Part shown: in pieces, positions 50,308 to 63,086 of the stretch
Layout: each line of letters opens with the position of its first letter
Position numbering within the stretch: the first letter of the stretch is position 1
Source: Candidatus Saccharicenans subterraneus
GTDB lineage: Bacteria > Acidobacteriota > Aminicenantia > Aminicenantales > Saccharicenantaceae
Assembly: GCA_003426165.1 (NCBI GenBank)
Contig: QUAH01000001.1
Span: 1 to 64,000 of the forward strand
Reading direction: 5' to 3'
DNA: 64,000 bases
Program-made: the position numbers and the translations under genes
The notes under the pieces: generated by a model
What the model was told of the DNA's origin: nothing
Database searches by the model: none
What the model saw: only the letters and a program-made list of their open reading frames with translations

Positions 50308-51738
50308 ATGAAAGTAGAAGCCATTACCCTTCTTACCATCTTTATTCCGATTTTGGGTTCGTTGCTGGTGCCTCTGGCCGGAGCCATCTCGCCCCGAGTC
50401 CGTTCCGCCTGGTCGGTCCTGCTGGGAGCCATCACCGCGGTTCTCCCTCTGACCCTGATTCCCCAGGCCATGAAGGGCGGCGAGGTCATCTGGTCCAGGA
50501 GCCTGGCCCTTGGTCTGGATTTCGTCCTGGTCATCGACCCCCTGTCCATCTTCATGGCCATCGTCTCCTCGTTCATCGGCTTCCTGATCATCGTCTACTC
50601 GCTCGGCTACATCCACCACGAAGACCACCAGAATGAATACTACCTGATGGTGGTCCTGTTCATCGGCTCCATGATGGGACTGGTGTTCTCCAGCAGCCTG
50701 GTCTTCATGTACCTGTTCTGGGAAATCATCGCCATCGCCTGCTGGCGGCTGATCGGGTTTTACCGGCAGAAGGATTACATCCTCAAGGCCGACAAAGCCT
50801 TCCTGGTCACCTTCGGCGGGGCGGTGGTCATGCTGCTGGGCTTCATTCTCATCTACGGGCAGACCGGGACCTTCAACCTGGTGGACATGCGCGGAGTGGC
50901 CATCTCCGGCACCGCCGTGCTGCTGATCCTGTTCGGCATGTTCTCCAAGTCGGCCACCGTTCCCCTGCACACCTGGCTGCCGGATGCCGGCGTGGCCCCG
51001 ACCACGGTTACCGCCCTGCTGCACGCCGCCGTCCTGGTCAAGATCGGCGTCTATGCCTATGCCAGGTTGTTCCTCTATACCTTCAAGATCCCGCCCGACT
51101 GGCAGCAGGCCATCATCATCCTGGCCGTCCTGTCCAGCCTGGTGGCGGCCGGCGCGGCCACGGTGGAGAACGACTTCAAGAGGATCCTGGCCTATTCCAC
51201 GGTCAGCCAGATCGGCTACATTTTCCTGGGCCTGAGCGTGGCCACACCCACGGCCATCTCCGGCTCGCTGCTGTTTATCCTGATGCACGGCCTGGCCAAG
51301 GCCGGCTTATTCCTTTGCGCCGGCATAGTCATCCATGCCACGCATAAACGCGATATAAGAGAGATGGGCGGGCTGATCAAGACCATGCCCATTACGGCTA
51401 TCTCGTTCCTGATATGCGCTTTTTCGGTTATCGGACTTCCGCCTCTGGGCGGTTTCTTCTCCAAGCTCCTGGTCATCATGGGTACGGTTCAGGCGGACCA
51501 GGTCTGGGTGGCAGCCCTGGCCCTGTTCACCGCGGTGCTGACCATGTTCTACCTGCTCCGGGTGTTCGCCCTGGTGTTCCTGGGTGAACCCAAGATCCCG
51601 GCCCCGGAGAAGACGCCATCCATGGTCGGGGTGGTGGCCACCCTGGCCGTGCTGTCGGTGGTGGCCGGGTTGCTGGTGGCCTACCCGATGAAACTCGTCC
51701 AGATGGCAACAACTCACATCAGCTGGTGGCTAAGATGA
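50308..51738 (+). CDS. Antiporter-like proton/ion-translocating subunit 1 (NuoM/MrpD-like)
   Basis: A 476-residue membrane protein with about 14 TM segments. The antiporter-family ion-path residues are visible: Glu139 in FMYLFWEI (TM5) and Lys214 in MFSKSATVPLHTWLPDA (TM7), with a later lysine in GGFFSKLLV (TM12). It belongs to the NuoL/M/N-MrpA/D family and should form one ion channel of the hydrogenase complex encoded downstream. First gene of the operon; no Shine-Dalgarno. Stop overlaps the next ATG (ATGA). Confidence 0.88.
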   Translation: MKVEAITLLTIFIPILGSLLVPLAGAISPRVRSAWSVLLGAITAVLPLTLIPQAMKGGEVIWSRSLALGLDFVLVIDPLSIFMAIVSSFIGFLIIVYSLGYIHHEDHQNEYYLMVVLFIGSMMGLVFSSSLVFMYLFWEIIAIACWRLIGFYRQKDYILKADKAFLVTFGGAVVMLLGFILIYGQTGTFNLVDMRGVAISGTAVLLILFGMFSKSATVPLHTWLPDAGVAPTTVTALLHAAVLVKIGVYAYARLFLYTFKIPPDWQQAIIILAVLSSLVAAGAATVENDFKRILAYSTVSQIGYIFLGLSVATPTAISGSLLFILMHGLAKAGLFLCAGIVIHATHKRDIREMGGLIKTMPITAISFLICAFSVIGLPPLGGFFSKLLVIMGTVQADQVWVAALALFTAVLTMFYLLRVFALVFLGEPKIPAPEKTPSMVGVVATLAVLSVVAGLLVAYPMKLVQMATTHISWWLR

Positions 51739-53603
51739 GTCCAACAACTTTATTATGGCCAATCCTGTTTCCGGCCGCGGTGGCGGTGGTGCTGCTGCTC
51801 ATCCCTTCCCGGGTAAAGTACCTGCGGGAAGTCCTGTCGGTGCTGAGCTCGGGCGCGCTGCTGTACCTTGGTTTCGTCCTGTTTTCGCAGAGAAACCTGA
51901 GCCTGGTGGCCGACTGGCTCGGCCTGGGTATAAATTTTGACCTCAGGCTCTACCATTTCTCCGCCTTCATCCTGCTGGCCCTGAGCGGCTTCCTGTTCCT
52001 GATCAGCCTCTACTCGGCGGTCAAGATGAGAAACCACCCGCGGGTCCGGGAATATTATGGTTATGTCTTCCTGGCGGCCGCCTTCTCCAACGGGGCGGTG
52101 CTGGCCAACAACTTCGTCCTGCTGGTCTTCTTCTGGGAAGCCCTGCTGATAACCACCTATGCCCTGGTCACCCTGGGGCTGAAACCGACCTCGCACCGGA
52201 CGGCGGTCAAATCGCTGATCATCGGCGGCTTCTGCGATTTTGCCATGATCCTGGGCATCGGCCTGCTCTGGGCTTCAACCGGTACCCTGACCATGGATAA
52301 AATCCAGGTGGAGCCGCACGGCCTGACCGTGGCCGCCTTCGTCCTGATGATGATCGGAGCCATCGGCAAGGCCGGGGCCATGCCCTTTCACACCTGGATT
52401 CCCGACGCCGCCCTGGATGCCCCGGTGAGCTTCATGGCCTTCATGCCGGCTTCCTTTGAGAAGCTCCTGGGCATCTACCTGCTGGCCCGTATCACCCTCG
52501 ATTTCTTCGAGCTCAAGGTGGGCAGCGGGCTGTCCATTCTGTTGATGATTATCGGCGCCGCCACCATAGTCCTGGCCGTTTTCATGGCCCTGATTCAGAA
52601 AGATTTCAAGAAGCTGCTGTCCTTCCACGCCGTGAGCCAGGTGGGCTACATGGTGCTGGGCGTGGGCACGGCCATACCCATCGGCATTGCCGGCGGCATC
52701 TTTCACATGATCAACCACGCCATGTACAAGTGCGGCCTGTTCCTCAGCTCCGGCTCGGTAGAACACCGCACCGGCACCACCGAACTTAAGAAACTCGGCG
52801 GGCTGGCCCGGGAGATGCCCTGGACCGCGGCCGGCTTTGTGGTCTGCGCCCTGGCCATCTCGGGCGTCTGGCCGCTGAACGGTTTTGTTTCCAAGGAAAT
52901 GGTCTTCCACGGGGCGCTGGAAACCGGCTACCCGATTTTCGCCATTGCCGCCTGGCTGGGAGCGATTTTCACCTTTGCTTCCTTCCTGAAGGCCGGGCAT
53001 TCGGTCTTCTTCGGACCGCGTTCGACCGAGGTCCCGAAAACCCGGGAAAGCGAGGCTCCGATCGTCCTGCCGATTCTCATCCTGGCCGCCCTGTGTATTA
53101 CCTTCGGTGTTTATAACAAGCTGCCCCTGCAGAATTTCATCCAGCCCATCCTCAGCGGACACGTGGAGGCCGGGGAGCACCTGGACTTCACCTCCCATGC
53201 CCTGGACCTGTTCAACCCGGTGGCCGGAGTTTCCATCCTCTGCCTTATTATCGCCCTGGGCATCCATTTTTATGGCTGGAACCGCGGCGGTAAGAAGGCC
53301 TACCTGGCCTCCGAGCCGATTCACAACCTGCCGGTGCTGCACAAGCTGTATGACCTGTCCGAGGCCCGGTTCTTTGACCTCTACGAGCAGGGCGTGAAAT
53401 TCCTGCAGTGGCTGAGCCGGCTGCTGTTCCGGTTCATCGACCGGCCGATCGATTACCTCTACGAAAAAGTGGTCACGGCCACGGGCCGGACTTTTACCGG
53501 CCTGCTGCAGAAAGCTCACAACGGCCAGTACGCCAATTACCTGGCCTGGACCGTCGGCGGCCTGGTGGTCGTCGTCTGGATAATACTTCAGTTATTAAAA
53601 TAG
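51735..53603 (+). CDS. Antiporter-like subunit 2 (NuoL-like, with C-terminal extension)
   Basis: 622 residues. The antiporter core has FFWEALLITTYAL (TM5 Glu), GAIGKAGAMPFHTWIPDA (TM7 Lys) and FVSKEMVFHG (TM12 Lys). After about residue 500 comes an extension (EARFFDLYEQGVKFLQWL then a last TM) like the lateral helix and final TM of NuoL in complex I. So this is the distal NuoL-type subunit. ATG 51735 is preferred to the GTG at 51726 because it overlaps the previous stop as ATGA. Confidence 0.88.
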   Translation: MSPTTLLWPILFPAAVAVVLLLIPSRVKYLREVLSVLSSGALLYLGFVLFSQRNLSLVADWLGLGINFDLRLYHFSAFILLALSGFLFLISLYSAVKMRNHPRVREYYGYVFLAAAFSNGAVLANNFVLLVFFWEALLITTYALVTLGLKPTSHRTAVKSLIIGGFCDFAMILGIGLLWASTGTLTMDKIQVEPHGLTVAAFVLMMIGAIGKAGAMPFHTWIPDAALDAPVSFMAFMPASFEKLLGIYLLARITLDFFELKVGSGLSILLMIIGAATIVLAVFMALIQKDFKKLLSFHAVSQVGYMVLGVGTAIPIGIAGGIFHMINHAMYKCGLFLSSGSVEHRTGTTELKKLGGLAREMPWTAAGFVVCALAISGVWPLNGFVSKEMVFHGALETGYPIFAIAAWLGAIFTFASFLKAGHSVFFGPRSTEVPKTRESEAPIVLPILILAALCITFGVYNKLPLQNFIQPILSGHVEAGEHLDFTSHALDLFNPVAGVSILCLIIALGIHFYGWNRGGKKAYLASEPIHNLPVLHKLYDLSEARFFDLYEQGVKFLQWLSRLLFRFIDRPIDYLYEKVVTATGRTFTGLLQKAHNGQYANYLAWTVGGLVVVVWIILQLLK

Positions 53604-53613
53604 AGGAGGAGCG

Positions 53614-55092
53614 GTGGTTTTCTCATTCATTGTCATTCCGTTACTGGTAGCTGCTTTTCTGCCTCTGGTAGGAAAGTTTTCTAAAAAACTGCTGCCCGAC
53701 GTGCTGACCAACGCCGCTCTGGCTTTCCTGGTGTTCAACTCCATCCTGCTGGTCAAGCCCATCTTCAACCAGGGAGTCATTGTCCAGAACCTGAACTGGC
53801 TGGGGGAACGGGTTAACCTGCAGGTGGCCCTGGACGGGTTTAACCTGTTCATGCTGTTCACCATTTCCCTGGTCAGCCTGTGTATCTCGCTCTTTTCCAT
53901 AGACTACCTGGAGCATTACGGGCACAAGTCGACCTTTTACGCCCTGTTCCTGGTGATGATAGCCGGCATGAACGGCCTGGTGCTGGTCCCGGACCTGTTC
54001 TCGGTTTACCTCTTCCTGGAAGTGGCGGCTGTGGCTTCCTACGCCCTGGTGGCCTTCGGCCTGGGCTACGACGAGCTGGAAGCCTCCTTCAAGTACCTGA
54101 TGTTGTCGGTGGTGGCCTCGGCCTTCGCCCTGCTCAGCATCACCGTCATTTTCGGGATGACCGGCAGCCTCAACTTCCAGGCCGTGGCCCAGGGCCTGCA
54201 GGACCTGCAGGCCAGGCTGGTGCTGGGGGTCTGCGTGGCCTTCTTCATCATGGGCTTCGGACTGAAGGCGGCGCTGGTGCCCTTCCATGCCTGGCTGCCC
54301 GACGCCCACCCCTCGGCCCCGGCGCCCATCTCGGCCATGCTGTCGGGCCTGCTGATCAAGGTTTCCGGTATCTATGCCCTGTTCAGAATTATCTACAGCG
54401 TTATCGGCCTGACCCCGGCCCTGTCGCAGCTGTTGATGGCCCTGGGCACCATCTCCATGGTGGTGGCCGCCCTGCTGGCCCTCGGCCAGAAGGATATCAA
54501 GAGAATGCTGGCCTACTCTTCCATCAGCCAGGTCGGCTACATCGTGCTGGGCCTGGCCCTGGGCACACCCCTGGGCATCGCCGGGGCGCTGTTCCACCTG
54601 TTCAACCACGCCGTGGCCAAGGGGCTGCTGTTCTTGAATTCCGGCTCCATCCAGCACATCACCGGCACCCGGAACCTGGAAGAGCTGGGTGGCCTGGGTA
54701 AGATGGTCCCGGTTACAGCCGGCACCAACCTGGTGGGCGCCCTGTCCATTGCCGGGGTGCCGCCGCTGGCCGGATTCTGGAGCAAGCTGATCATCATCAT
54801 GGCCCTCATCCAGGCCAAGGAATTCGGCTACGCCCTGGTGGCCATCCTGGCCAGCATCCTGACCCTCTGGTATTACCTGCTAATCCAGAGAAAGGCCTTT
54901 TTCGGCCGGGTGGCTGAAAAGTGGTCCCAGGTACGGGAGGCTCCGTTCTGGATGTCGGCGGCCAACGTGGTCCTGGCCCTGGTCTGCATCCTGGTGGGCA
55001 TTTTCTTCACGCCAATTTTTAAGACCTGGATTTCCCCGGCAGCCGAGGCCCTGGCCCGGGGAATCCAACAGGTTCTGATGTGGGGATTGTGA
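53614..55092 (+). CDS. Antiporter-like subunit 3 (NuoN/M-like)
   Basis: A 492-residue antiporter-family subunit. TM5 has YLFLEVAAVASYAL and TM7 has GLKAALVPFHAWLPDAHPSAP. ISQVGYIVLGL and a TM12 lysine (GFWSKLIIIMAL) are present. The start is GTG with GAGGAGGA upstream. The third of three consecutive antiporter modules, matching the three (L, M, N) of complex I. Confidence 0.88.
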   Translation: MVFSFIVIPLLVAAFLPLVGKFSKKLLPDVLTNAALAFLVFNSILLVKPIFNQGVIVQNLNWLGERVNLQVALDGFNLFMLFTISLVSLCISLFSIDYLEHYGHKSTFYALFLVMIAGMNGLVLVPDLFSVYLFLEVAAVASYALVAFGLGYDELEASFKYLMLSVVASAFALLSITVIFGMTGSLNFQAVAQGLQDLQARLVLGVCVAFFIMGFGLKAALVPFHAWLPDAHPSAPAPISAMLSGLLIKVSGIYALFRIIYSVIGLTPALSQLLMALGTISMVVAALLALGQKDIKRMLAYSSISQVGYIVLGLALGTPLGIAGALFHLFNHAVAKGLLFLNSGSIQHITGTRNLEELGGLGKMVPVTAGTNLVGALSIAGVPPLAGFWSKLIIIMALIQAKEFGYALVAILASILTLWYYLLIQRKAFFGRVAEKWSQVREAPFWMSAANVVLALVCILVGIFFTPIFKTWISPAAEALARGIQQVLMWGL

Positions 55093-55093
55093 T

Positions 55094-55582
55094 ATGGCAA
55101 TACAAATAATTCTGCTCTGCGGCCTGGTCATCTTCTCGGCCCTGGCCATTCTGCTCAAGGACCTGATCAAAGCCGCCCTGTCGCTGGCCGTGGCCAGCCT
55201 GCTGCTGGGTATCATTTTCTTCCGGCTGGCGGCTCCCTATGCCGCCGTCTTCGAGATCTCGGTGGTGGCCGGGCTGATCACGGTCCTGTTCATCCTGACC
55301 ATCGCCCTGACCAAGAAAGGAGACGAGGTAACCGAGGCCCGGCTGGTCAAGCTGGCCTTCCCGGTCTTCCTTATCCTGTTCTTAATCATCGATGGGCTGG
55401 TGATGAAGTCCCTGTTGCAGAAAATCCCGGCCCTGCCCTCGGGACCGGAAGCCGGCACCTTCGGCGAGGTCCTCTGGAAGCAGCGGACCTTTGACCTGGT
55501 GGCCCAGGTCGGCGTCATCCTGGCCGGGGTGCTGGCCGTGCTGGCCTTATTCCGGAAAAAGGAAGAAGACAAAGATGAGTAA
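55094..55582 (+). CDS. NuoJ-like membrane subunit
   Basis: 162 residues with about five TM segments. The third (VFEISVVAGLITVLFILTIA) aligns in position and character with the TM3 region of NuoJ, which undergoes conformational change in complex I. Weak sequence conservation is normal for NuoJ; position directly before a NuoK-like gene supports the call. Its 3' end overlaps the next gene by 8 bases. Confidence 0.75.
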   Translation: MAIQIILLCGLVIFSALAILLKDLIKAALSLAVASLLLGIIFFRLAAPYAAVFEISVVAGLITVLFILTIALTKKGDEVTEARLVKLAFPVFLILFLIIDGLVMKSLLQKIPALPSGPEAGTFGEVLWKQRTFDLVAQVGVILAGVLAVLALFRKKEEDKDE

Positions 55583-55883
55583 CCTGTGGTTTCTTTACCT
55601 TTTCTTTGCCGCCCTGCTGGTCTTTATCGGCCTGTACTGCCTGCTCACCATGCGCAACCTGATCAAGCTGTTCATCGCGGTGGAAGTCATCAGCAAGGGA
55701 GTCAGCCTGGCCATCGTGGCCACGGGCGCCGTCAAGAATAACATCCTGCTGGCCCAGAGCCTGGCCATAACCTACATCGTGGTCGAGGTGGCCCTGGTGG
55801 CCACCGCCCTGGCCCTGATCATCAACATCTATAAGAAGAATAAGAGCCTGGATGTCCGCTTACTTTCAAAACTGAAGGGATAA
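55575..55883 (+). CDS. NuoK-like membrane subunit
   Basis: 102 residues, three TM segments. Glu37 (IAVEVISKGVSL) and Glu71 (YIVVEVALVATAL) sit at the places of the two essential membrane glutamates of E. coli NuoK (E36, E72), which supports a working ion path. The ATG at 55575 has GGAAGAAG upstream; the frame upstream of it is a shadow of the NuoJ-like gene. Confidence 0.87.
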   Translation: MSNLWFLYLFFAALLVFIGLYCLLTMRNLIKLFIAVEVISKGVSLAIVATGAVKNNILLAQSLAITYIVVEVALVATALALIINIYKKNKSLDVRLLSKLKG

Positions 55884-55886
55884 GCC

Positions 55887-56219
55887 ATGAATGGACTGCA
55901 ATTCTTACTGTCTCCGCCGGTGGCCTTCTTTTTCTTCCTGGCCGTGGCCGCACTGCTCTACGCCCTGGGCCGGGCCATGGCCCCCGGCCTGAACCGCACC
56001 CCGGGCAAGCTCACCACCTACGCCTGCGGCGAGGATATCCCGGGAGTCAAGGTGCAGTTCGGGTACCGGCTGTTCTACGTCTTCGCCCTGTTTTTCACCA
56101 TCATGCACGTGGCCGCCCTGGTAATGGCTACTATTCCGATCGGAAAAATAGCATATTTGGGTATAATATATCTGGCCCTGATCTTCCTGGCCATCCTGGC
56201 CCTGATTACGAGGGATTAA
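55887..56219 (+). CDS. NuoA-like membrane subunit (chain 3)
   Basis: 110 residues, three TM segments. The TM1-TM2 loop contains TYACGEDIPG with Cys47, matching the conserved loop cysteine of NuoA/ND3, and FGYRLFYVFALFFTIMHVAAL corresponds to TM2 of chain 3. Presence of a NuoA homologue is a complex-I-like feature uncommon in classical Ech or formate-hydrogenlyase operons. Confidence 0.88.
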   Translation: MNGLQFLLSPPVAFFFFLAVAALLYALGRAMAPGLNRTPGKLTTYACGEDIPGVKVQFGYRLFYVFALFFTIMHVAALVMATIPIGKIAYLGIIYLALIFLAILALITRD

Positions 56220-56220
56220 C

Positions 56221-56646
56221 ATGCTGACCAAACTGACTCACTGGTCCAGGTTGAAATCGCCCTGGATTCTTCACCTGAACACGGGTGCCTGCAACGCCTG
56301 CGACATCGAAGTGGTGGCCGCCCTGACCCCGCGCTTCGACGTGGAGCGGTTCGGCATCCTGCTCAAGGCCACGCCCCGGCATGCCGACGTCATCGTCTGC
56401 ACCGGCCCGGCCACCCGGCAGATGAAGGACCGGCTGATCCGGATTTACGAGCAGACCCCCGACCCCAAGTTTGTCATCGCCGTCGGGGCCTGCGCCATGT
56501 CCGGCTGCGTCTACCGCGGCGCCTACAATGTCCTTGGCGGGATCGACCAGGTCATCCCGGTGGACGTCTACGTCCCCGGCTGCCCGGTGCGCCCCGACGC
56601 GGTCATCGACGGGGTGGTCAAACTGCTTAATAAACTGAAGGGATGA
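56221..56646 (+). CDS. [NiFe]-hydrogenase small subunit (NuoB/EchC-like)
   Basis: 141 residues. Proximal [4Fe-4S] cluster ligands C24 and C27 (GACNACDIE), C91 (GACAMSG) and C121 (PGCPVRP). The CxxC form is that of group 4 hydrogenases; NuoB of complex I has adjacent cysteines (CC) instead. It passes electrons between the ferredoxin-like subunit and the NiFe centre. Starts one base after the NuoA-like gene. Confidence 0.92.
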   Translation: MLTKLTHWSRLKSPWILHLNTGACNACDIEVVAALTPRFDVERFGILLKATPRHADVIVCTGPATRQMKDRLIRIYEQTPDPKFVIAVGACAMSGCVYRGAYNVLGGIDQVIPVDVYVPGCPVRPDAVIDGVVKLLNKLKG

Positions 56647-56653
56647 GGTCAAA

Positions 56654-57127
56654 ATGAACGACCAGATGGTGATAGATAAAGCCAAAGCCAGCCTGGGGGA
56701 GAAGGTGCTGGAGATCACCAACCCGGCTCCCCGCCGCATTTTTATCCGGGTTAAGGTGGACGACCTGCTGGCGGCCGTCGGCTGGCTCAGAAACGAGATG
56801 GGATTTACTTACCTGGTCACAATCAGCGGGGTGGACCTGGGCCAGGCCTTCGAACTGCTTTACCACTTCGCCAACAACTTTACCTGCGTTAACCTGCGAA
56901 CCGAGATACCGCGGGACAATCCCGTGCTTCCCAGCATCTGCGAGATAATTCCTGGAGCCATCCTCTACGAGCGGGAGCTCCAGGACATGTTCGGGATTGT
57001 CGTCCGGAATATTCCCGACGGCCGTCCCCTGGTGCTGCCCGACGACTGGCCGGCCGGCAACTACCCGCTGCGCAAGGACTGGAAGTACGAGAGACCGCCG
57101 GAGGTCATCCCTGGAGGTAAGAAATGA
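56654..57127 (+). CDS. NuoC-like subunit (30-kDa type)
   Basis: 157 residues. The C-terminal part carries the chain signature: ERELQDMFGIVVRNIPDG followed by LPDDWPAGNYPLRKDW. In group 4 hydrogenases and complex I this subunit packs against the large subunit. AGGT precedes the ATG. It overlaps the large-subunit gene by 4 bp (ATGA). Confidence 0.9.
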   Translation: MNDQMVIDKAKASLGEKVLEITNPAPRRIFIRVKVDDLLAAVGWLRNEMGFTYLVTISGVDLGQAFELLYHFANNFTCVNLRTEIPRDNPVLPSICEIIPGAILYERELQDMFGIVVRNIPDGRPLVLPDDWPAGNYPLRKDWKYERPPEVIPGGKK

Positions 57128-58326
57128 AATTTCAGATACCCATCGGACCACAGCATCCGGCTCTGAAGGAGCCCATCAGCCTGCGGATGACCGTGGAGGG
57201 AGAAATTATCCGCGACGCCGACCTCCGTCTCGGCTACAACCACCGCGGGCTGGAAAAGCTGGCCGAGCAGAAAACCTGGATTCAGAATATCTACCTGACC
57301 GAGCGCATCTGCGGCATCTGCTCCCACTCCCACACCACCTGTTATGTTCAGGGCGTGGAGAAGCTGATGGAGATCGAGCCCCCCAAGCGCGGCCAGTACA
57401 TACGTTACCTGGTCTCGGAGCTGGAAAGGGTGCACAGCCACCTGCTCTGGCTGGGCGTGGCCGGTCACGAGGCCGGGTTTGACAGCTTCTTCATGTACAC
57501 CTGGCGCGACCGCGAAATCGTCATGGACATCCTGGAGACCATCAGCGGCAACCGGGTGCATTATGGCATCAATACCATTGGCGGGGTCCGCCGCGACCTG
57601 GACGAACAGCAGGTCAAACACATCCTCGACTCCCTGGCCATACTCCGGGAGCGCAGCGAATATTACCAGCATCTCGGGACCAACGAGCCGAGCTTCGTGG
57701 CCAGGCTGGCCGGGGTCGGCTACCTGTCCCGGGAAGACGCCATCGCCCTGTGCGCCGTTGGCCCCACGGTCCGGGCCTCCGGGGTGCCGATGGACGTCCG
57801 CAAGGACGACCCCTACGGCATCTATGGCGAGGTGCCCTTTGAAGTCTGCACGGCCGACACCTGCGATGTCCTGGGACGGACCGTGGTCCGGATCAAAGAA
57901 TTATTCCAGTGTTACAACATTATCGAATACCTCCTGAAAAACCTGCCCTCCGGGCCGGTGGCCGTCCGGGCCCCGCGTCGGGCCAAGCCCAACGAGGTGG
58001 TCAGCCGCTACGAGGCCCCGCGCGGCGAGAACATACACTACATCAAGAGCAACGGCACCGATAAACCGGAGCGGCTGAAAGTCAGGGCCCCCACCCTGGG
58101 CAACTATGCCGCCACCATCAAGATGCTCAAGAACGGCTTCATTGCCGATGTCCCGCTGATCTTCGCGGCTATCGACCCCTGCATCTGCTGCGCCGAGCGG
58201 GCGGTGGCCCTGGTCGATGCCCGGAGCGGTCAGGAAAGAATTATTTCCATGAACGCCTTAAAAAAACTCAGCCGCCAGGTTTCGGCTGGGAACGCCAGAA
58301 AGAGGGAAGCAGAATGGCCACTGTGA
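57124..58326 (+). CDS. [NiFe]-hydrogenase large subunit (group 4, NuoD-like)
   Basis: 400 residues. All four nickel-ligand cysteines are present: C63 and C66 in RICGIC (L1) and C353 and C356 in DPCICC (L2). Complex I NuoD lacks these, so this is a catalytic hydrogenase. GPQHPALKEP at the start and LGYNHRGLEK are shared by NuoD and group 4 enzymes. After L2 comes AER then 41 more residues, resembling the C-terminal peptide of HycE that HycI removes. A HycI-like protease gene ends this operon. Confidence 0.95.
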   Translation: MKFQIPIGPQHPALKEPISLRMTVEGEIIRDADLRLGYNHRGLEKLAEQKTWIQNIYLTERICGICSHSHTTCYVQGVEKLMEIEPPKRGQYIRYLVSELERVHSHLLWLGVAGHEAGFDSFFMYTWRDREIVMDILETISGNRVHYGINTIGGVRRDLDEQQVKHILDSLAILRERSEYYQHLGTNEPSFVARLAGVGYLSREDAIALCAVGPTVRASGVPMDVRKDDPYGIYGEVPFEVCTADTCDVLGRTVVRIKELFQCYNIIEYLLKNLPSGPVAVRAPRRAKPNEVVSRYEAPRGENIHYIKSNGTDKPERLKVRAPTLGNYAATIKMLKNGFIADVPLIFAAIDPCICCAERAVALVDARSGQERIISMNALKKLSRQVSAGNARKREAEWPL

Positions 58327-59285
58327 AGACTCTGATCTATCTCATCGTCTATCCCGGTCTCCTCTTCTTGTTCCTGTATTCCACCTTCGTCGAGTGGTAC
58401 GACCGCAAGCTCTACGCCCGGCTTCAGAACCGCATGGGCCCGACCCACACCGGTCGGTTCGGCCTGCTGCAGCCGATTGCCGATTTCTTCAAGCTGATGG
58501 CCAAAGAGGATATCGTGCCGGACCGGGCGGACCGGAAGATGTTCTCGGTCCTGCCGGCGGTAGGGCTGGCCATAGTCTTCACGGCCATGCTGCTGCTTCC
58601 GGTCTGGAATTACAGCCTGGACCGGCCCTCGGTCACTTCCTTTAACGGCGACCTCATCGTCCTGCTCTACCTCCTGAGCCTGCCGACCTTCATCTTCTTC
58701 CTGGCCGGCTGGTCTTCGACCAACCTGTTCTCCACCATAGGTGGAGCCCGGGTCCTGACCATGCTCTTCGGCTACGAAGTCCCGCTTTTCCTGGCCGTCC
58801 TGAGCCCGGCCGTCCTGGCCAACTCCTGGCGCCTGGCCGAAATCGCCGCCTTCTACCGGCAGCGGCCGGCCCTGGCCCTGGTCAACCTGCTGGGTTTTGT
58901 CATCGCCCTGATCTGCGTCCAGGCCAAGCTGGAACGCACCCCCTTTGACATCCCCCATGCCGAAACGGAAATTGTCGGCGGCACCTTTACCGAATATTCC
59001 GGCAAGAAACTGGCTATCTTCCGCCTGATGATGGACGCCGAGATGGTGGTGGCCGCCGGCTTGCTGGCCACCGTTTTCCTGGGCGGCTTCCCCGGCGGAG
59101 CGCTGCTGGGGCTGGTCAACTTTATCGTCAAGACGCTGGTGGTTGTGTTCTTCCTGTCTTTAATCAGGGCCACCACTTCCAGGATCAGGGTGGACCAGGT
59201 GGTCAGTTTCGCCTGGAAATACCTGGCCCCGCTGGCCATACTGCAGCTTTTAATCGTCATCCTGGTAAAGGGGTTAATCTCATGA
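58314..59285 (+). CDS. NuoH/EchB-like membrane anchor subunit
   Basis: 323 residues, about eight TM segments. RLQNRMGPTHTGRFGLLQPI and ADFFKLMAKEDIVP on one cytosolic loop and RTPFDIPHAETEIVGGTF on another are the hallmark loops of NuoH/HycD/EchB, which bind the hydrophilic arm and hold acidic residues of the E-channel. It overlaps the large-subunit gene by 13 bases. Confidence 0.93.
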   Translation: MATVKTLIYLIVYPGLLFLFLYSTFVEWYDRKLYARLQNRMGPTHTGRFGLLQPIADFFKLMAKEDIVPDRADRKMFSVLPAVGLAIVFTAMLLLPVWNYSLDRPSVTSFNGDLIVLLYLLSLPTFIFFLAGWSSTNLFSTIGGARVLTMLFGYEVPLFLAVLSPAVLANSWRLAEIAAFYRQRPALALVNLLGFVIALICVQAKLERTPFDIPHAETEIVGGTFTEYSGKKLAIFRLMMDAEMVVAAGLLATVFLGGFPGGALLGLVNFIVKTLVVVFFLSLIRATTSRIRVDQVVSFAWKYLAPLAILQLLIVILVKGLIS

Positions 59286-59680
59286 AGATAGGCGCGTTTA
59301 TCCCTGAACTTCTCCGCCACCTGTTTAAGAAACCGGCCACTGTCGATTACCCGTTCCAGAAACTGGAGGTGCCCAGGGACTTCCGGGGTTCGCCCTACCT
59401 CCGCCCCGAGCTGTGCATAGTCTGCCGGGCCTGCGAGCGCGACTGCCCGGCCGAAGCTATAGAAATCACGGCCACCAACGAGGCCGAGAAGAGATTCAGG
59501 ATGGTCATTCACAACGACCGCTGCATCCACTGCGCCCAGTGCGTGGACTCCTGCCCGACCGACGCCATGCAGATGGACACCAGGTTTGAAATCTCCGACT
59601 ACGACCGCCACAACCTGAAGATGGAATGGGAATATGTCCGGGCGGTGGTCAAGCCCAAATCCGAGCCAAAGACTTCATAG
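59282..59680 (+). CDS. NuoI/EchF-like 2[4Fe-4S] ferredoxin subunit
   Basis: 132 residues. Two classical motifs, CIVCRACERDCP and CIHCAQCVDSCP, bind two [4Fe-4S] clusters. It is the likely entry or exit point for electrons from soluble ferredoxin, since no NuoE/F/G-type NADH module is encoded. It overlaps the NuoH-like gene by 4 bp (ATGA). Confidence 0.93.
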   Translation: MKIGAFIPELLRHLFKKPATVDYPFQKLEVPRDFRGSPYLRPELCIVCRACERDCPAEAIEITATNEAEKRFRMVIHNDRCIHCAQCVDSCPTDAMQMDTRFEISDYDRHNLKMEWEYVRAVVKPKSEPKTS

Positions 59681-59761
59681 GCACCGGAGGCCGCCGGGGT
59701 TGATTTGCCTGGCGCCCGGGATTAAATTAAAAGCGGGCCTAGACCTGGAGGGGAGGGGCGG

Positions 59762-60265
59762 ATGCCTGACCGCTGGGTTGAATTTCTCAAGAAAGAGTTG
59801 AAAGGCATAGACCGGCTGCTGGTCCTGGGCACGGGCAACGCCCTCAAGGCCGACGATGCGGCCGGATTGCTGGTGGCCAGCCTGCTCGACCGGCGACTCA
59901 GCCGGCGCCAGAAGGCCAGAATAAAAGTCCTCCGGGTTTACGAGCTAATCGATTCTTACAACCGCAGGATAAAGCGCCTCAAACCCTCTCACCTGGTAAT
60001 AGTCGACGCCCTGGACACTGGGCACCAGCCGGGATACATCATGGCCACCAGGCTGGAGCCCGGGCGGAGAAAAAAGAAGAAGATAAGCAGCGAATTCTAC
60101 CAGTTACTGGAAAAGCTGACAGCGGATTCAGCCTGCCGAATTTATTTCATCGGGATTCAACCGGCTTTGCTCGATTTCGGGCACCCGATTTCCCCGCCGG
60201 TTAAAGAAGCCTCCCGCCGGGTGGCCGAATACATATCGACCCTGGCCGCCGGCTCCATCCGCTGA
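59762..60265 (+). CDS. HycI-like hydrogenase maturation endopeptidase
   Basis: 167 residues. LGTGNALKADDAAGLLVA corresponds to the nickel-sensing GxGNxxxxDD motif, VIVDALDTG to the second conserved acidic site, and IGIQPALLDFG with SPPVKEA to the HycI C-terminal region. Such proteases trim the large subunit after nickel insertion. It is 81 bases after the ferredoxin subunit, behind a G-rich Shine-Dalgarno (GGAGGGGAGG). Its presence agrees with the uncleaved C-terminal extension on the large subunit. Confidence 0.85.
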   Translation: MPDRWVEFLKKELKGIDRLLVLGTGNALKADDAAGLLVASLLDRRLSRRQKARIKVLRVYELIDSYNRRIKRLKPSHLVIVDALDTGHQPGYIMATRLEPGRRKKKKISSEFYQLLEKLTADSACRIYFIGIQPALLDFGHPISPPVKEASRRVAEYISTLAAGSIR

Positions 60266-60268
60266 GGC

Positions 60269-61375
60269 CTAAATTTTCATCGGCATCAGCACGTAGAGAT
60301 AGGTCCCCTTGGTTTCAGCCTCAGGTTTGATTAGCACAGCGCTGTTCTCGTCTTTTATCTCAAAGATCACCCGGTCTGAGGTAACCGTTCCCAGGAAATC
60401 GAGCAGGTACTGGGAGTTAAAACCTATCTCCAGGTCTTTACCCTGGTAATCCACGGCCAGCTTGTCCCTGGCTTCACCGAACTCCGGGTTGGATGAAAAG
60501 AGTTTAAGCTCGCCGGCCTTCAGGTCAAACTTTATACCCCGCGACTTTTCCGAGGACAGGATTGAAACCCGTTTTATGGCATTGACCAGGGCCTCCCGTT
60601 CTATGTTAAGGATGTTAGGGTTATCCTTGGGCATGACCGCCTGGTAGTTGGGGAACTTACTCTCGATAATCCGGCTGATCAGCATCCGGTTTTTCACCCG
60701 GAAAAACAGGCTGTTGTCGTCAAAGTCAAACTCGACCCGCTCGTCGTCGAACTTTTTGAGCTCGTTCAGGGTCTTCTTGGAGATGATCTGGTTAATCTCT
60801 TTTTCTACCCTCAAATCTTCAAATTCTCTCCGGGTGTAGGACAGTCGGTGACCGTCGGTGCTAACCAGTTCCAGCTGGTTGTTCTTTATCGACAGCAGGG
60901 CACCGTTCAGGTAATAGCGCTGTTCCTGGGTAATGGCATACAGGACACAATCAATCATCTCCTTGAAATCGGATACATTCCAGGAAATGGCCCTGTCAAA
61001 ACCGGAATCCTGGATGGCCGGAAAATCTTCTTCCGGCGCGGTCAGGACCTTGATCTCGCTCTCGCCCGACCTGACCACCAGGTGCTCTTCCTTTTTTATG
61101 AACTCAATTGTCTGGTCCTCTGGCAGTAACTTTATAAAATCAAACAACTTCCTTCCGTTAACGGCCACTTTCCCTTCCTGCCTGACCTCAGCCTCGAAGC
61201 TGGTTTTAAGACCCACTTCCAGGTCAGTTCCCATCAACTCGACGCTGCCCCGGCCAGCCTTGACCAGAACGTTCGACAGAATGGGCATGGTTGTCCTTTT
61301 TTCCACAATACCCTGCAATAAACCTAATTCGTTAATAATGTTGTTTTTAGTGGCTGAGAAGTTCATTTTTTCCAC
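60269..61375 (-). CDS. dnaN: DNA polymerase III beta subunit (sliding clamp)
   Basis: 368 residues with three clamp domains in the normal order and length. The C-terminus YLYVLMPMKI is the usual clamp end. It tethers DNA polymerase III to DNA. GGTGG precedes the ATG. Convergent with the HycI-like gene, with 3 bases between stops, and downstream of dnaA as in most bacteria. Confidence 0.95.
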   Translation of the reverse strand: MEKMNFSATKNNIINELGLLQGIVEKRTTMPILSNVLVKAGRGSVELMGTDLEVGLKTSFEAEVRQEGKVAVNGRKLFDFIKLLPEDQTIEFIKKEEHLVVRSGESEIKVLTAPEEDFPAIQDSGFDRAISWNVSDFKEMIDCVLYAITQEQRYYLNGALLSIKNNQLELVSTDGHRLSYTRREFEDLRVEKEINQIISKKTLNELKKFDDERVEFDFDDNSLFFRVKNRMLISRIIESKFPNYQAVMPKDNPNILNIEREALVNAIKRVSILSSEKSRGIKFDLKAGELKLFSSNPEFGEARDKLAVDYQGKDLEIGFNSQYLLDFLGTVTSDRVIFEIKDENSAVLIKPEAETKGTYLYVLMPMKI

Positions 61376-61483
61376 CTTTCTTCATGGTCAATAATATAAT
61401 TATAAATCATAAAAAGGCAATAAAAAAAATACAAGAAGGACAGGTTAATATGTGAAAACCTCTATGCTTCTTTTTTGATATCA
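61376..61483. other. AT-rich dnaA-dnaN intergenic region
   Basis: 108 bases, strongly AT-rich with A and T runs. It holds a candidate dnaN promoter and could serve as an unwinding element if the origin lies here, but I find no DnaA-box cluster in it. Confidence 0.4.
61406..61434 (-). promoter_or_regulatory. Candidate promoter of dnaN
   Basis: On the minus strand: TTGTAT (61434-61429), a 17-base spacer and TATGAT (61411-61406). Leader of about 24 bases. AT-rich context makes chance matches more likely. Confidence 0.4.
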
Positions 61484-62815
61484 TCACTTTAGAAGGTGGA
61501 TCAGGTTGTTAATTTCTCTGTTGAATTCCTGATCATGTTCTCTTAATTTTTCTATTTTCCTTATACTGTGCAGAACAGTGGTGTGATGCTTGCCGCCGAA
61601 TTTTTTGCCGATCTCTGGCAGCGAGTTATCGGTTAGCTCCTTGGCCAGATACATGGCCACCTGTCTGGGGAAGGCGACTCGCGGAGAATTATTTTTTGAC
61701 TTCAGCTCGGACGGCTTGATTTTATACTGGGTGCAGACCACCTTCTGTATTTTTTCCACGGTTATGATATTGGCTGAGGCATCGAGCAGGCCCTTCAGCG
61801 CTTCCTTGGCCAGCTCCAGGTCTATCCTGGAACCTTTGAGCGAAGCATAGGCGATAACCCGGCGCAGATAACCTTCTAGTTCTCTGATATTGGAATGAAC
61901 CTTGTCGGCAATGTACAGGGCCACCGGTTCGGGCAGGGCAATATCTTCCATCTCGGCCTTTTTCTTCAGGATGGCAATCCGGGTTTCAATGTCGGGTGGG
62001 CGCAGGTCGGCGATCAGGCCCCACTCAAAGCGAGAGCGGAAGCGGTCTTCCAGGTGCGGAATATCCTTGGGCGGACAGTCGCTGGAAATCACTATCTGCT
62101 TCTGGCTGTCGTAGAGATGGTTAAAGGTATGGAAGAATTCTTCCTTGGTTCTCTCCCGGCCAGATATGTAATGGATGTCATCCATCAACAGGACGTCAAC
62201 TGCCCGGTACTTCTGCCTGAACTCCAGGATTTTCCCGTACTGGAGATGGTTGATGAGTTCGTTCATGAAGCGCTCGGTGGTAACGTATAGAACTTTAAGC
62301 CGGGCATTGCTGCCCATGATCTGATGGCCGATGGCGTTCATCAGGTGGGTCTTGCCCAGCCCGGCCCCGCCGTAGATGTACAGCGGGTTGTAGGACTTGG
62401 CCGGGTTCTTGGCCACAGCTATGGCTGCGGCGTGGGCAAATTGATTACAGCTGCCGACGACGAAATTTTCAAAGGTGTAGTTGGGGTTGAGGTTGGCCAC
62501 CTGGGTCACCGCCTGGTGGAGCTTTCTCTCGTCAGGAGAATTACGGAGAAAGGAGGCGGGGGTCTCGTCGTAAATGTACTTAATGTCGAAGTTCTTGTTG
62601 AATAGTTCCTGGCAGCATTCGTTAATCAGGCGCGAATAGTGGAAACTCAGCCAGTCTTTGAAGTAGGCGTTTGGGACCTTGATGTACAGGGTTTCCCCTT
62701 CCTCTCCGATGTAAGAGGTGGGCTCGAACCAGGTTTCGAAGGCCTGTCCCTCAACCCGGTTCTTGACCTCGGCCAGTATCCTGTTCCAGGGATTAACTTT
62801 ATCTTCAAACTTCAT
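61484..62815 (-). CDS. dnaA: Chromosomal replication initiator DnaA
   Basis: 443 residues. Domain I (about 1-75), a short linker, the AAA+ domain III with Walker A GGAGLGKTHLM and Walker B LLMDDIHY, and the DNA-binding domain IV with FGGKHHTTVLHSIRKIE. It binds DnaA boxes and opens the origin. ATG 62815 is preferred; the frame continues upstream to 62908 through the DnaA boxes, which is a non-coding region by homology. No clear Shine-Dalgarno is seen. Confidence 0.96.
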   Translation of the reverse strand: MKFEDKVNPWNRILAEVKNRVEGQAFETWFEPTSYIGEEGETLYIKVPNAYFKDWLSFHYSRLINECCQELFNKNFDIKYIYDETPASFLRNSPDERKLHQAVTQVANLNPNYTFENFVVGSCNQFAHAAAIAVAKNPAKSYNPLYIYGGAGLGKTHLMNAIGHQIMGSNARLKVLYVTTERFMNELINHLQYGKILEFRQKYRAVDVLLMDDIHYISGRERTKEEFFHTFNHLYDSQKQIVISSDCPPKDIPHLEDRFRSRFEWGLIADLRPPDIETRIAILKKKAEMEDIALPEPVALYIADKVHSNIRELEGYLRRVIAYASLKGSRIDLELAKEALKGLLDASANIITVEKIQKVVCTQYKIKPSELKSKNNSPRVAFPRQVAMYLAKELTDNSLPEIGKKFGGKHHTTVLHSIRKIEKLREHDQEFNREINNLIHLLK

Positions 62816-62828
62816 GACGCGCCAAAAG

Positions 62829-62860
62829 ATTTCCACAAAATTTTCCACAACTGTGGAAAA
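62829..62860. promoter_or_regulatory. DnaA-box cluster upstream of dnaA (possible oriC or autoregulatory site)
   Basis: TTTTCCACA (62841-62849) and its inverted copy TGTGGAAAA (62852-62860) match TTWTNCACA perfectly and face each other 2 bases apart. A third site, ATTTCCACA (62829-62837), has one mismatch. An AT-rich segment lies at 62926-62960. Position next to dnaA fits an origin or dnaA autoregulation. Confidence 0.6.
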
Positions 62861-63086
62861 CGCCCCCGCCGGTAAAACTGGTGGGGGAATCGCCAAAAAT
62901 ATTACCACCTGGCCGGTCAGAATTCAAGAAAATTTTTAAATAATTTCAAAACAAAAACCAGAAGCAGGGCGAGTTATGTGCTGACCGCGTTTCTGGCGGG
63001 GTGGCCACCGCCGGGAAGGGGGCCACGGGTCATTGGTCTGCAGCCGGCTGGCCTCCGCCCGCAGCCTAAAAAGTTACCGCCCTCAG
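62861..63086. other. Rest of the dnaA-rpmB intergenic region
   Basis: Part of a 348-base gene-free stretch between divergent dnaA and rpmB. Apart from the AT-rich tract at about 62926-62960 and the DnaA boxes beside it, I see no gene or RNA. Confidence 0.4.

Follow-up and report, generated by a model that had tools for sequence, protein, structure and literature searches.

The stretch of Candidatus Saccharicenans subterraneus DNA analysed here (the window, 64,000 nucleotides) carries twelve open reading frames (ORFs) on the + strand at positions 50308-60265, which together resemble a group 4 [NiFe] hydrogenase equipped with the membrane arm of complex I. The ORF list and family searches give the order L1-L2-L3-J-K-A-B-C-D-H-I-HycI, with gaps or overlaps of no more than 13 bases between neighbouring genes, except for 81 bases ahead of HycI, and with the start of K corrected to 55575. 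The original prediction, made by a model from the letters of this DNA alone, had described twelve tightly packed genes in this order, and both the ORFs and the Pfam matches agree with it. The host is a Ca. Saccharicenans-like Aminicenantes genome, and D is 98% identical to the nearest named record (L053). The features are as follows.

50308..51738, + strand: L1, antiporter subunit of 476 amino acids, with a NuoL/HyfD-like core but lacking the long C-terminal helix (PF00361)
51726..53603, + strand: L2, antiporter subunit of 625 amino acids, with a NuoL-like long helix (residues 552-597) and last transmembrane helix (PF00361)
53614..55092, + strand: L3, antiporter subunit of 492 amino acids, MrpD/NuoM/N-like (PF00361)
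55094..55582, + strand: J, single-chain NuoJ/MbhD-E homologue of 162 amino acids (PF00499 and MbhD PF13244)
55575..55883, + strand: K, NuoK/MbhG homologue of 102 amino acids (PF00420)
55887..56219, + strand: A, NuoA homologue of 110 amino acids with the loop YACGED (PF00507, profile comparison)
56221..56646, + strand: B, small subunit with CxxC for the proximal 4Fe-4S cluster (PF01058)
56654..57127, + strand: C, NuoC/MbhK homologue (PF00329)
57124..58326, + strand: D, [NiFe] large subunit with RICGIC and DPCICC (PF00346 plus PF00374)
58314..59285, + strand: H, NuoH/MbhM homologue (PF00146)
59282..59680, + strand: I, ferredoxin-like protein with two 4Fe-4S clusters, the likely point of electron entry (4Fe-4S dicluster family match)
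59762..60265, + strand: HycI-type maturation protease (PF01750)

The catalytic subunits are of the hydrogenase type, as had been predicted. D carries RICGICSHSH and DPCICCAER, which supply all four cysteine ligands of the Ni/Fe site, with about 41 residues remaining beyond the last motif, and B has CNAC at the site where E. coli NuoB has CC. The four cysteines are present in 80/80 fetched relatives, which were chosen from at least 577, one of the two retrieval patterns having held the first Ni motif, so that for this half of the site the result follows in part from how the loci were chosen. CxxC is found in 85 of the 86 family members having a B, against CC in 19/19 Nuo/Fpo loci. These cysteines, the membrane subunits and the HycI-type protease are the marks of a group 4 [NiFe] hydrogenase, while the loss of Ni cysteines from D and the CC of B that define complex I are not seen in the operon; nor did family searches find NuoE, NuoF or NuoG among its 12 proteins, an absence that had also been foreseen. 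The solved structures closest to D are MbhL (295 bits) and HycE (284.5), followed by Nqo4 (208), and the top match of B is MbhJ of the P. furiosus membrane-bound hydrogenase (MBH). The score of D against the NCBIfam NuoD model (342.6 bits, under the cut-off of 360) could be taken to suggest a quinone or disulfide reductase of the Ehr/Nuo-like kind in place of a hydrogenase, but the four cysteines, the CxxC of B, the protease and the matches to MbhL and HycE already disfavour such an enzyme, which we regard as extremely improbable. The quinone-type enzyme without NuoEFG is not known to have Ni cysteines. It shares the subunit set of the operon and is said, in the text available to us, to differ clearly from membrane-bound hydrogenases.

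An additional cysteine beside the last Ni ligand (DPC(I/V)CCAER; window 58174-58200) marks a subclade that holds the window operon and 54 of the 80 loci in all, the remaining 26 reading DPCxSC or DPCIAC. The published L2 consensus, as given in the part of the source available, has A, G, S or T before the fourth cysteine (PMC7886697), so that D departs from it by one letter while retaining every ligand. In H, the usual PEAE reads PHAE in 5/5 rows shown from the DPC(I/V)CC subclade and in 0/10 other A-bearing rows.

Subunit A is a genuine, NuoA-type homologue as judged by several comparisons. Its match to PF00507 is weak (25.1 bits; cut-off 23.3), whereas all 23 PDB matches up to E 10 are NuoA or ND3 (best E 0.002), and a profile of A aligned to 11 NuoA rows by hhalign gives 97% and E 1e-10, where the controls K and J reach 0.5% and 1.1%. 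The PDB search is the more independent of these tests, since 10 of the 11 NuoA rows had been chosen through matches to the A profile. The NuoA loop motif appears as YACGE in 70 of the 82 family members having an A, the FDVE stretch of NuoA transmembrane helix 2 is mostly replaced by MHVA (at least 43/82), and A lies directly upstream of B in 69/71 loci.

The remaining membrane subunits are less clearly of the Nuo type. Against solved structures, J scores 46 bits to MbsD, 41 to MbhD and 36 to NuoJ; K scores 74 to MbhG, 69 to MbsG, 64 to NdhE and 46 to NuoK; and L2 scores 176 to MbhH, 171 to MrpD and 152 or lower to NuoL. Thus, while the prediction of Nuo-type A, J and K stands for A, the nearness of J, K and L2 to Mbh/Mbs/Mrp proteins partly matches the very outcome that it had named as its own refutation. 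Of its antiporter labels, NuoL-type for L2 is borne out by a NuoL-like fold including the C-terminal long helix, and L1, which had been called M-type, scores best to the NuoL model, yet is short. The residues expected of ion pumps are in place: L1, L2 and L3 all keep the glutamate of transmembrane helix 5 and the lysines of helices 7 and 12 (Glu144, Lys229 and Lys399 of L1 in NuoL numbering), and K has a glutamate at the place of NuoK Glu36 and an additional lysine four residues on, both invariant in 26 aligned rows. A second K alignment shows serine for the glutamate in two archaeal rows and arginine for the lysine in L217.

In four loci with A-bearing hydrogenases (L116, L197, L217 and L218) J is split into two small, MbhD/MbhE-like genes and the operon starts J-J-K-L, and L199 and L200 have one J piece each. 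The split-J loci are a possible record of J fusion.

These likenesses bear on the possibility of an Mbh-type, Mrp-linked Na+ hydrogenase, in which H+ pumped by the hydrogenase would be exchanged for Na+ by Mrp-like subunits, the arm being joined on in the manner of P. furiosus MBH (6cfw). It would account for the resemblance of J, K and L2 to MbhD, MbhG and MbhH and for MbhL and MbhJ being the nearest solved D and B, and enzymes of Omnitrophota and Cloacimonadota are labelled '4g, linked to Mrp' in the portion of PMC8542988 available. However, MBH combines an Mrp-type Na+ module with one antiporter, whereas the operon has three antiporters and NuoA, and family searches found no homologue of that module (MbhA, MbhB, MbhC and MbhF, equivalent to MrpE, MrpF, MrpG and MrpB) among its 12 proteins. 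Together with the tree topology test given below, this makes the Na+ hydrogenase quite improbable.

The operon belongs to a widespread family. Among 60 sampled genomes, the host's own included, 44 carry a D of at least 73% identity, and in 40 of these A lies close upstream of D; in three others (G013, G016 and G045) A is on a different contig and D near a contig end, and G030, where D likewise lies close to the end of its contig, yielded no A. Where this D is absent (16 genomes), a match to A occurs once, in G037; it is weak (8.7e-4) and probably NuoA. A synteny check, as had been suggested, showed the order of detected genes to be conserved in 79 of the 80 fetched loci, the sole exception (L116) being the only archaeon among them, and all eleven subunit genes are present in 45 of the 47 loci of sufficient length. 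The hosts named in record titles include Aminicenantes, Omnitrophota, WOR-3, TA06, Elusimicrobia and Riflebacteria, and further Saganbacteria/WOR-1, Bacillota, Bacteroidales, Lentisphaerae and Phycisphaerales. In one Omnitrophota metagenome-assembled genome (L096) the A-bearing operon is followed downstream, on the same strand, by further genes resembling H, B, C, D and I, which make up a second set.

Phylogeny links this family to complex I. All trees are unrooted, contain a long Nuo branch, cover bacteria and archaea outside the Bathyarchaeia and Asgard groups, and carry group labels taken from synteny and memory except for E. coli and P. furiosus. In a D tree of 69 rows the 26 A-bearing rows form one side of a branch (100/100). 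A quick tree of B+C+D+H+I (59 rows) places A-bearing and Nuo/Fpo rows on one side with a Shimodaira-Hasegawa-like approximate likelihood ratio (SH-aLRT) support of 98.9; a careful five-gene tree (44 rows) separates these from 22 other hydrogenases (100/99), which in the five-gene trees are Mbh-, Ech-, Coo- and FHL-like; and B+D+H+I without Ech (39 rows) gives the same union (100/99.9). By the approximately unbiased (AU) test on the five-gene set, Ech+Nuo has a p-AU of 0.017, and a clade of the A-bearing family with five Mbh-like rows, as the Na+ hydrogenase would predict, is rejected (p 0.001). In single-gene quick trees of up to 44 rows the union of A-bearing and Nuo/Fpo rows has SH-aLRT values of 81.8 for B, 99.6 for H and 83.7 for I, of which H alone is strong, and it is not rejected by the single D and C trees. 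The suggested phylogeny check thus joins the family with complex I/Fpo in five-gene trees but not with D alone, and within this sampling the A-bearing family is supported as the hydrogenases closest to complex I in multi-gene trees.

Relative to nuoABCDHI-JKLMN, the operon has its two blocks of genes exchanged. This, and the failure of D alone to place the family with Nuo, would fit a mosaic in which a hydrogenase module (B-D, H and I) gained its A, J, K and L genes at a later time, through recombination with a complex I operon. On the other hand, the module genes B, H and I also join Nuo, with the values just given, J, K and L2 are more Mbh-like than Nuo-like, and A accompanies D throughout the family, which leaves such a capture improbable. 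An alternative history is that the A-bearing hydrogenases of bacteria and some archaea are the sister group of complex I/Fpo. In this view the complete arm, with A, H, J, K and three antiporters, first took shape on a hydrogenase, ahead of both quinone chemistry and NuoEFG, and is still run by these enzymes; we put this forward tentatively, at a little short of even chances. If it is true, split-J (Mbh-like) and single-chain-J (Nuo-like) members record the last steps, and a long arm of the complex I type pumps H+ without any quinone.

Intermediates between hydrogenase and complex I, as the operon had been predicted to be, are not new in kind, although the multi-gene trees favour the idea within their sampling. 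Hfo, a [NiFe] hydrogenase of Bathyarchaeia that is Fpo-like and has 11 subunits, was described by Loh et al. (2021), who held it to be closer than Mbh to complex I (PMC7886697), and a similar cluster has been reported in Bathyarchaeum (PMC10477458). From what is accessible of these accounts, Hfo shares with the window operon the eleven subunits (A, B, C, D, H, I, J, K and three L-type), the Ni motifs, the absence of NuoEFG/FpoFO and of the Mbh Na+ module, and the HydDB 4g class; it differs in having the Fpo/Nuo order ABCDHIJKLMN, where our family has LMN-JK-ABCDHI-HycI and mostly bacterial hosts. In Asgard archaea a group 4 complex-I-like hydrogenase with up to eight Nuo-like genes and an L subunit with helix HL has been linked to complex I, but the sections available name two antiporters and do not mention NuoA (PMC11291895); it was compared by description and not in trees. 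HydDB subgroup 4g, to which we assign the operon by inference from literature on Omnitrophota members, is described in the excerpts available as loosely clustered and of unknown function (PMC5037454) and as polyphyletic (PMC11291895). Its Omnitrophota and Cloacimonadota enzymes are likewise putatively ferredoxin-coupled and antiporter-linked, and the A-bearing clade includes Omnitrophota, but those excerpts speak of 'Mrp' and give no account of a NuoA/J/K set (PMC5037454, PMC8542988). The E. coli formate hydrogenlyases FHL-1 and FHL-2 (Hyc and Hyf) are also group 4 [NiFe] enzymes with antiporter-like subunits; no A was found in them, they have fewer J/K-like parts and they form a separate clade.

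Gene content, ligand and pump residues, conservation and kinship can be read directly, and from them we consider it likely that the operon encodes an energy-converting hydrogenase of the 4g type with a full complex-I membrane arm, the arm being in line with the original prediction. Its H2 evolution would be ferredoxin-driven, reversible and coupled to H+ pumping by three antiporter modules, the arm presumably being oriented as in complex I and not as in Mbh. Reduced ferredoxin, the putative donor because gene I is present and the operon has no other electron-input gene, would pass electrons to the two 4Fe-4S clusters of I, and these by way of the single 4Fe-4S cluster of B to the NiFe site of D, which occupies the position of quinone reduction in complex I and where protons would be reduced to H2. 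H, A, J and K would relay the energy of the reaction to the antiporter modules, which would drive H+ outward. The enzyme is probably reversible, in that high H2 pressure and proton-motive force would drive ferredoxin reduction.

Several points weigh against this proposal. Ferredoxin and H2 have potentials of -500 mV and -414 mV. That span would pay for about 1 H+ per H2 at standard H2, which is little for three modules. In syntrophic sediments, where H2 is low, it would pay for about 3 H+, so that three pumping modules, and with them the strong ion pumping of the original prediction, are plausible only there, the span being small, and the enzyme should run backwards at high H2. J, K and L2 are intermediate and nearer Mbh/Mbs/Mrp than Nuo, leaving room for Mbh-like coupling, and the tree of D alone pairs Nuo/Fpo with Ech, weakly (92/74). 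As far as the available text of PMC7886697 goes, no subgroup 4g enzyme had been assayed as of 2021. In the host genome, a second group 4-like cluster (L237, G000:C9:204000-223900), with HycI-like, molybdopterin oxidoreductase, Fer4_22, AsrA/B-like (AsrB-like flavoprotein), antiporter, D, H, I and B genes, may share the role or the pumping; it resembles the enigmatic RX5A cluster of Saganbacteria, judging from the part available (PMC6349859). In favour of the proposal, the three PF01512 proteins of the genome all have the NuoF/HydB-type PF10589 region, so that no RnfC-like protein is among these matches, which come from a single search for this family in an assembly that is 93% complete. With no RnfC-like protein and no third D-like match (for example NuoD) at E 1e-30 in this genome, the operon may be its main ferredoxin-linked pump.

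The direction of the reaction could also be mainly the reverse, with proton-motive force driving the reduction of ferredoxin by H2 to serve biosynthesis. Reversibility is common among group 4 enzymes. The HydDB table lists 4e as reversible, and this role has been proposed, in the portion of the article available, for Bathyarchaeia Hfo (PMC7886697). An Aminicenantes member from a mat is, however, described in the available part of its report as living by fermentation and perhaps producing H2 (PMC5459899), and on balance mainly reverse operation appears unlikely, though worth keeping in mind.

As far as the literature searched reaches, what looks new is the bacterial A-bearing 11-subunit family with its breadth, permuted order, five-gene placement and DPCICC signature, and also the evidence for NuoA and an A with a changed acidic site. 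The passage from hydrogenase to complex I is a long-standing question that has been argued mainly from MBH, whose redox module, according to the part of PMC7419157 available, is attached on the side opposite to that in complex I. A widespread bacterial family that combines the full arm with an intact NiFe motif and lacks a D of the quinone type offers a direct test of whether long-range coupling preceded quinone. It also suggests that members of many candidate phyla conserve the energy of ferredoxin by a three-pump hydrogenase so far logged as '4g, Mrp-linked'.

The host genome further contains a soluble [NiFe] hydrogenase cluster (L238, G000:C9:160000-179900), whose subunits include NuoE/F-fused and NuoG-N-terminal-like ones and which shares its stretch with DNA polymerase III alpha, and a full-length PF00374 match on C12. 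The tail-to-tail neighbours of the operon at 60269-62908 are presumably dnaN and dnaA, judging from their sequences, and because of these neighbours the operon may lie near a replication origin.

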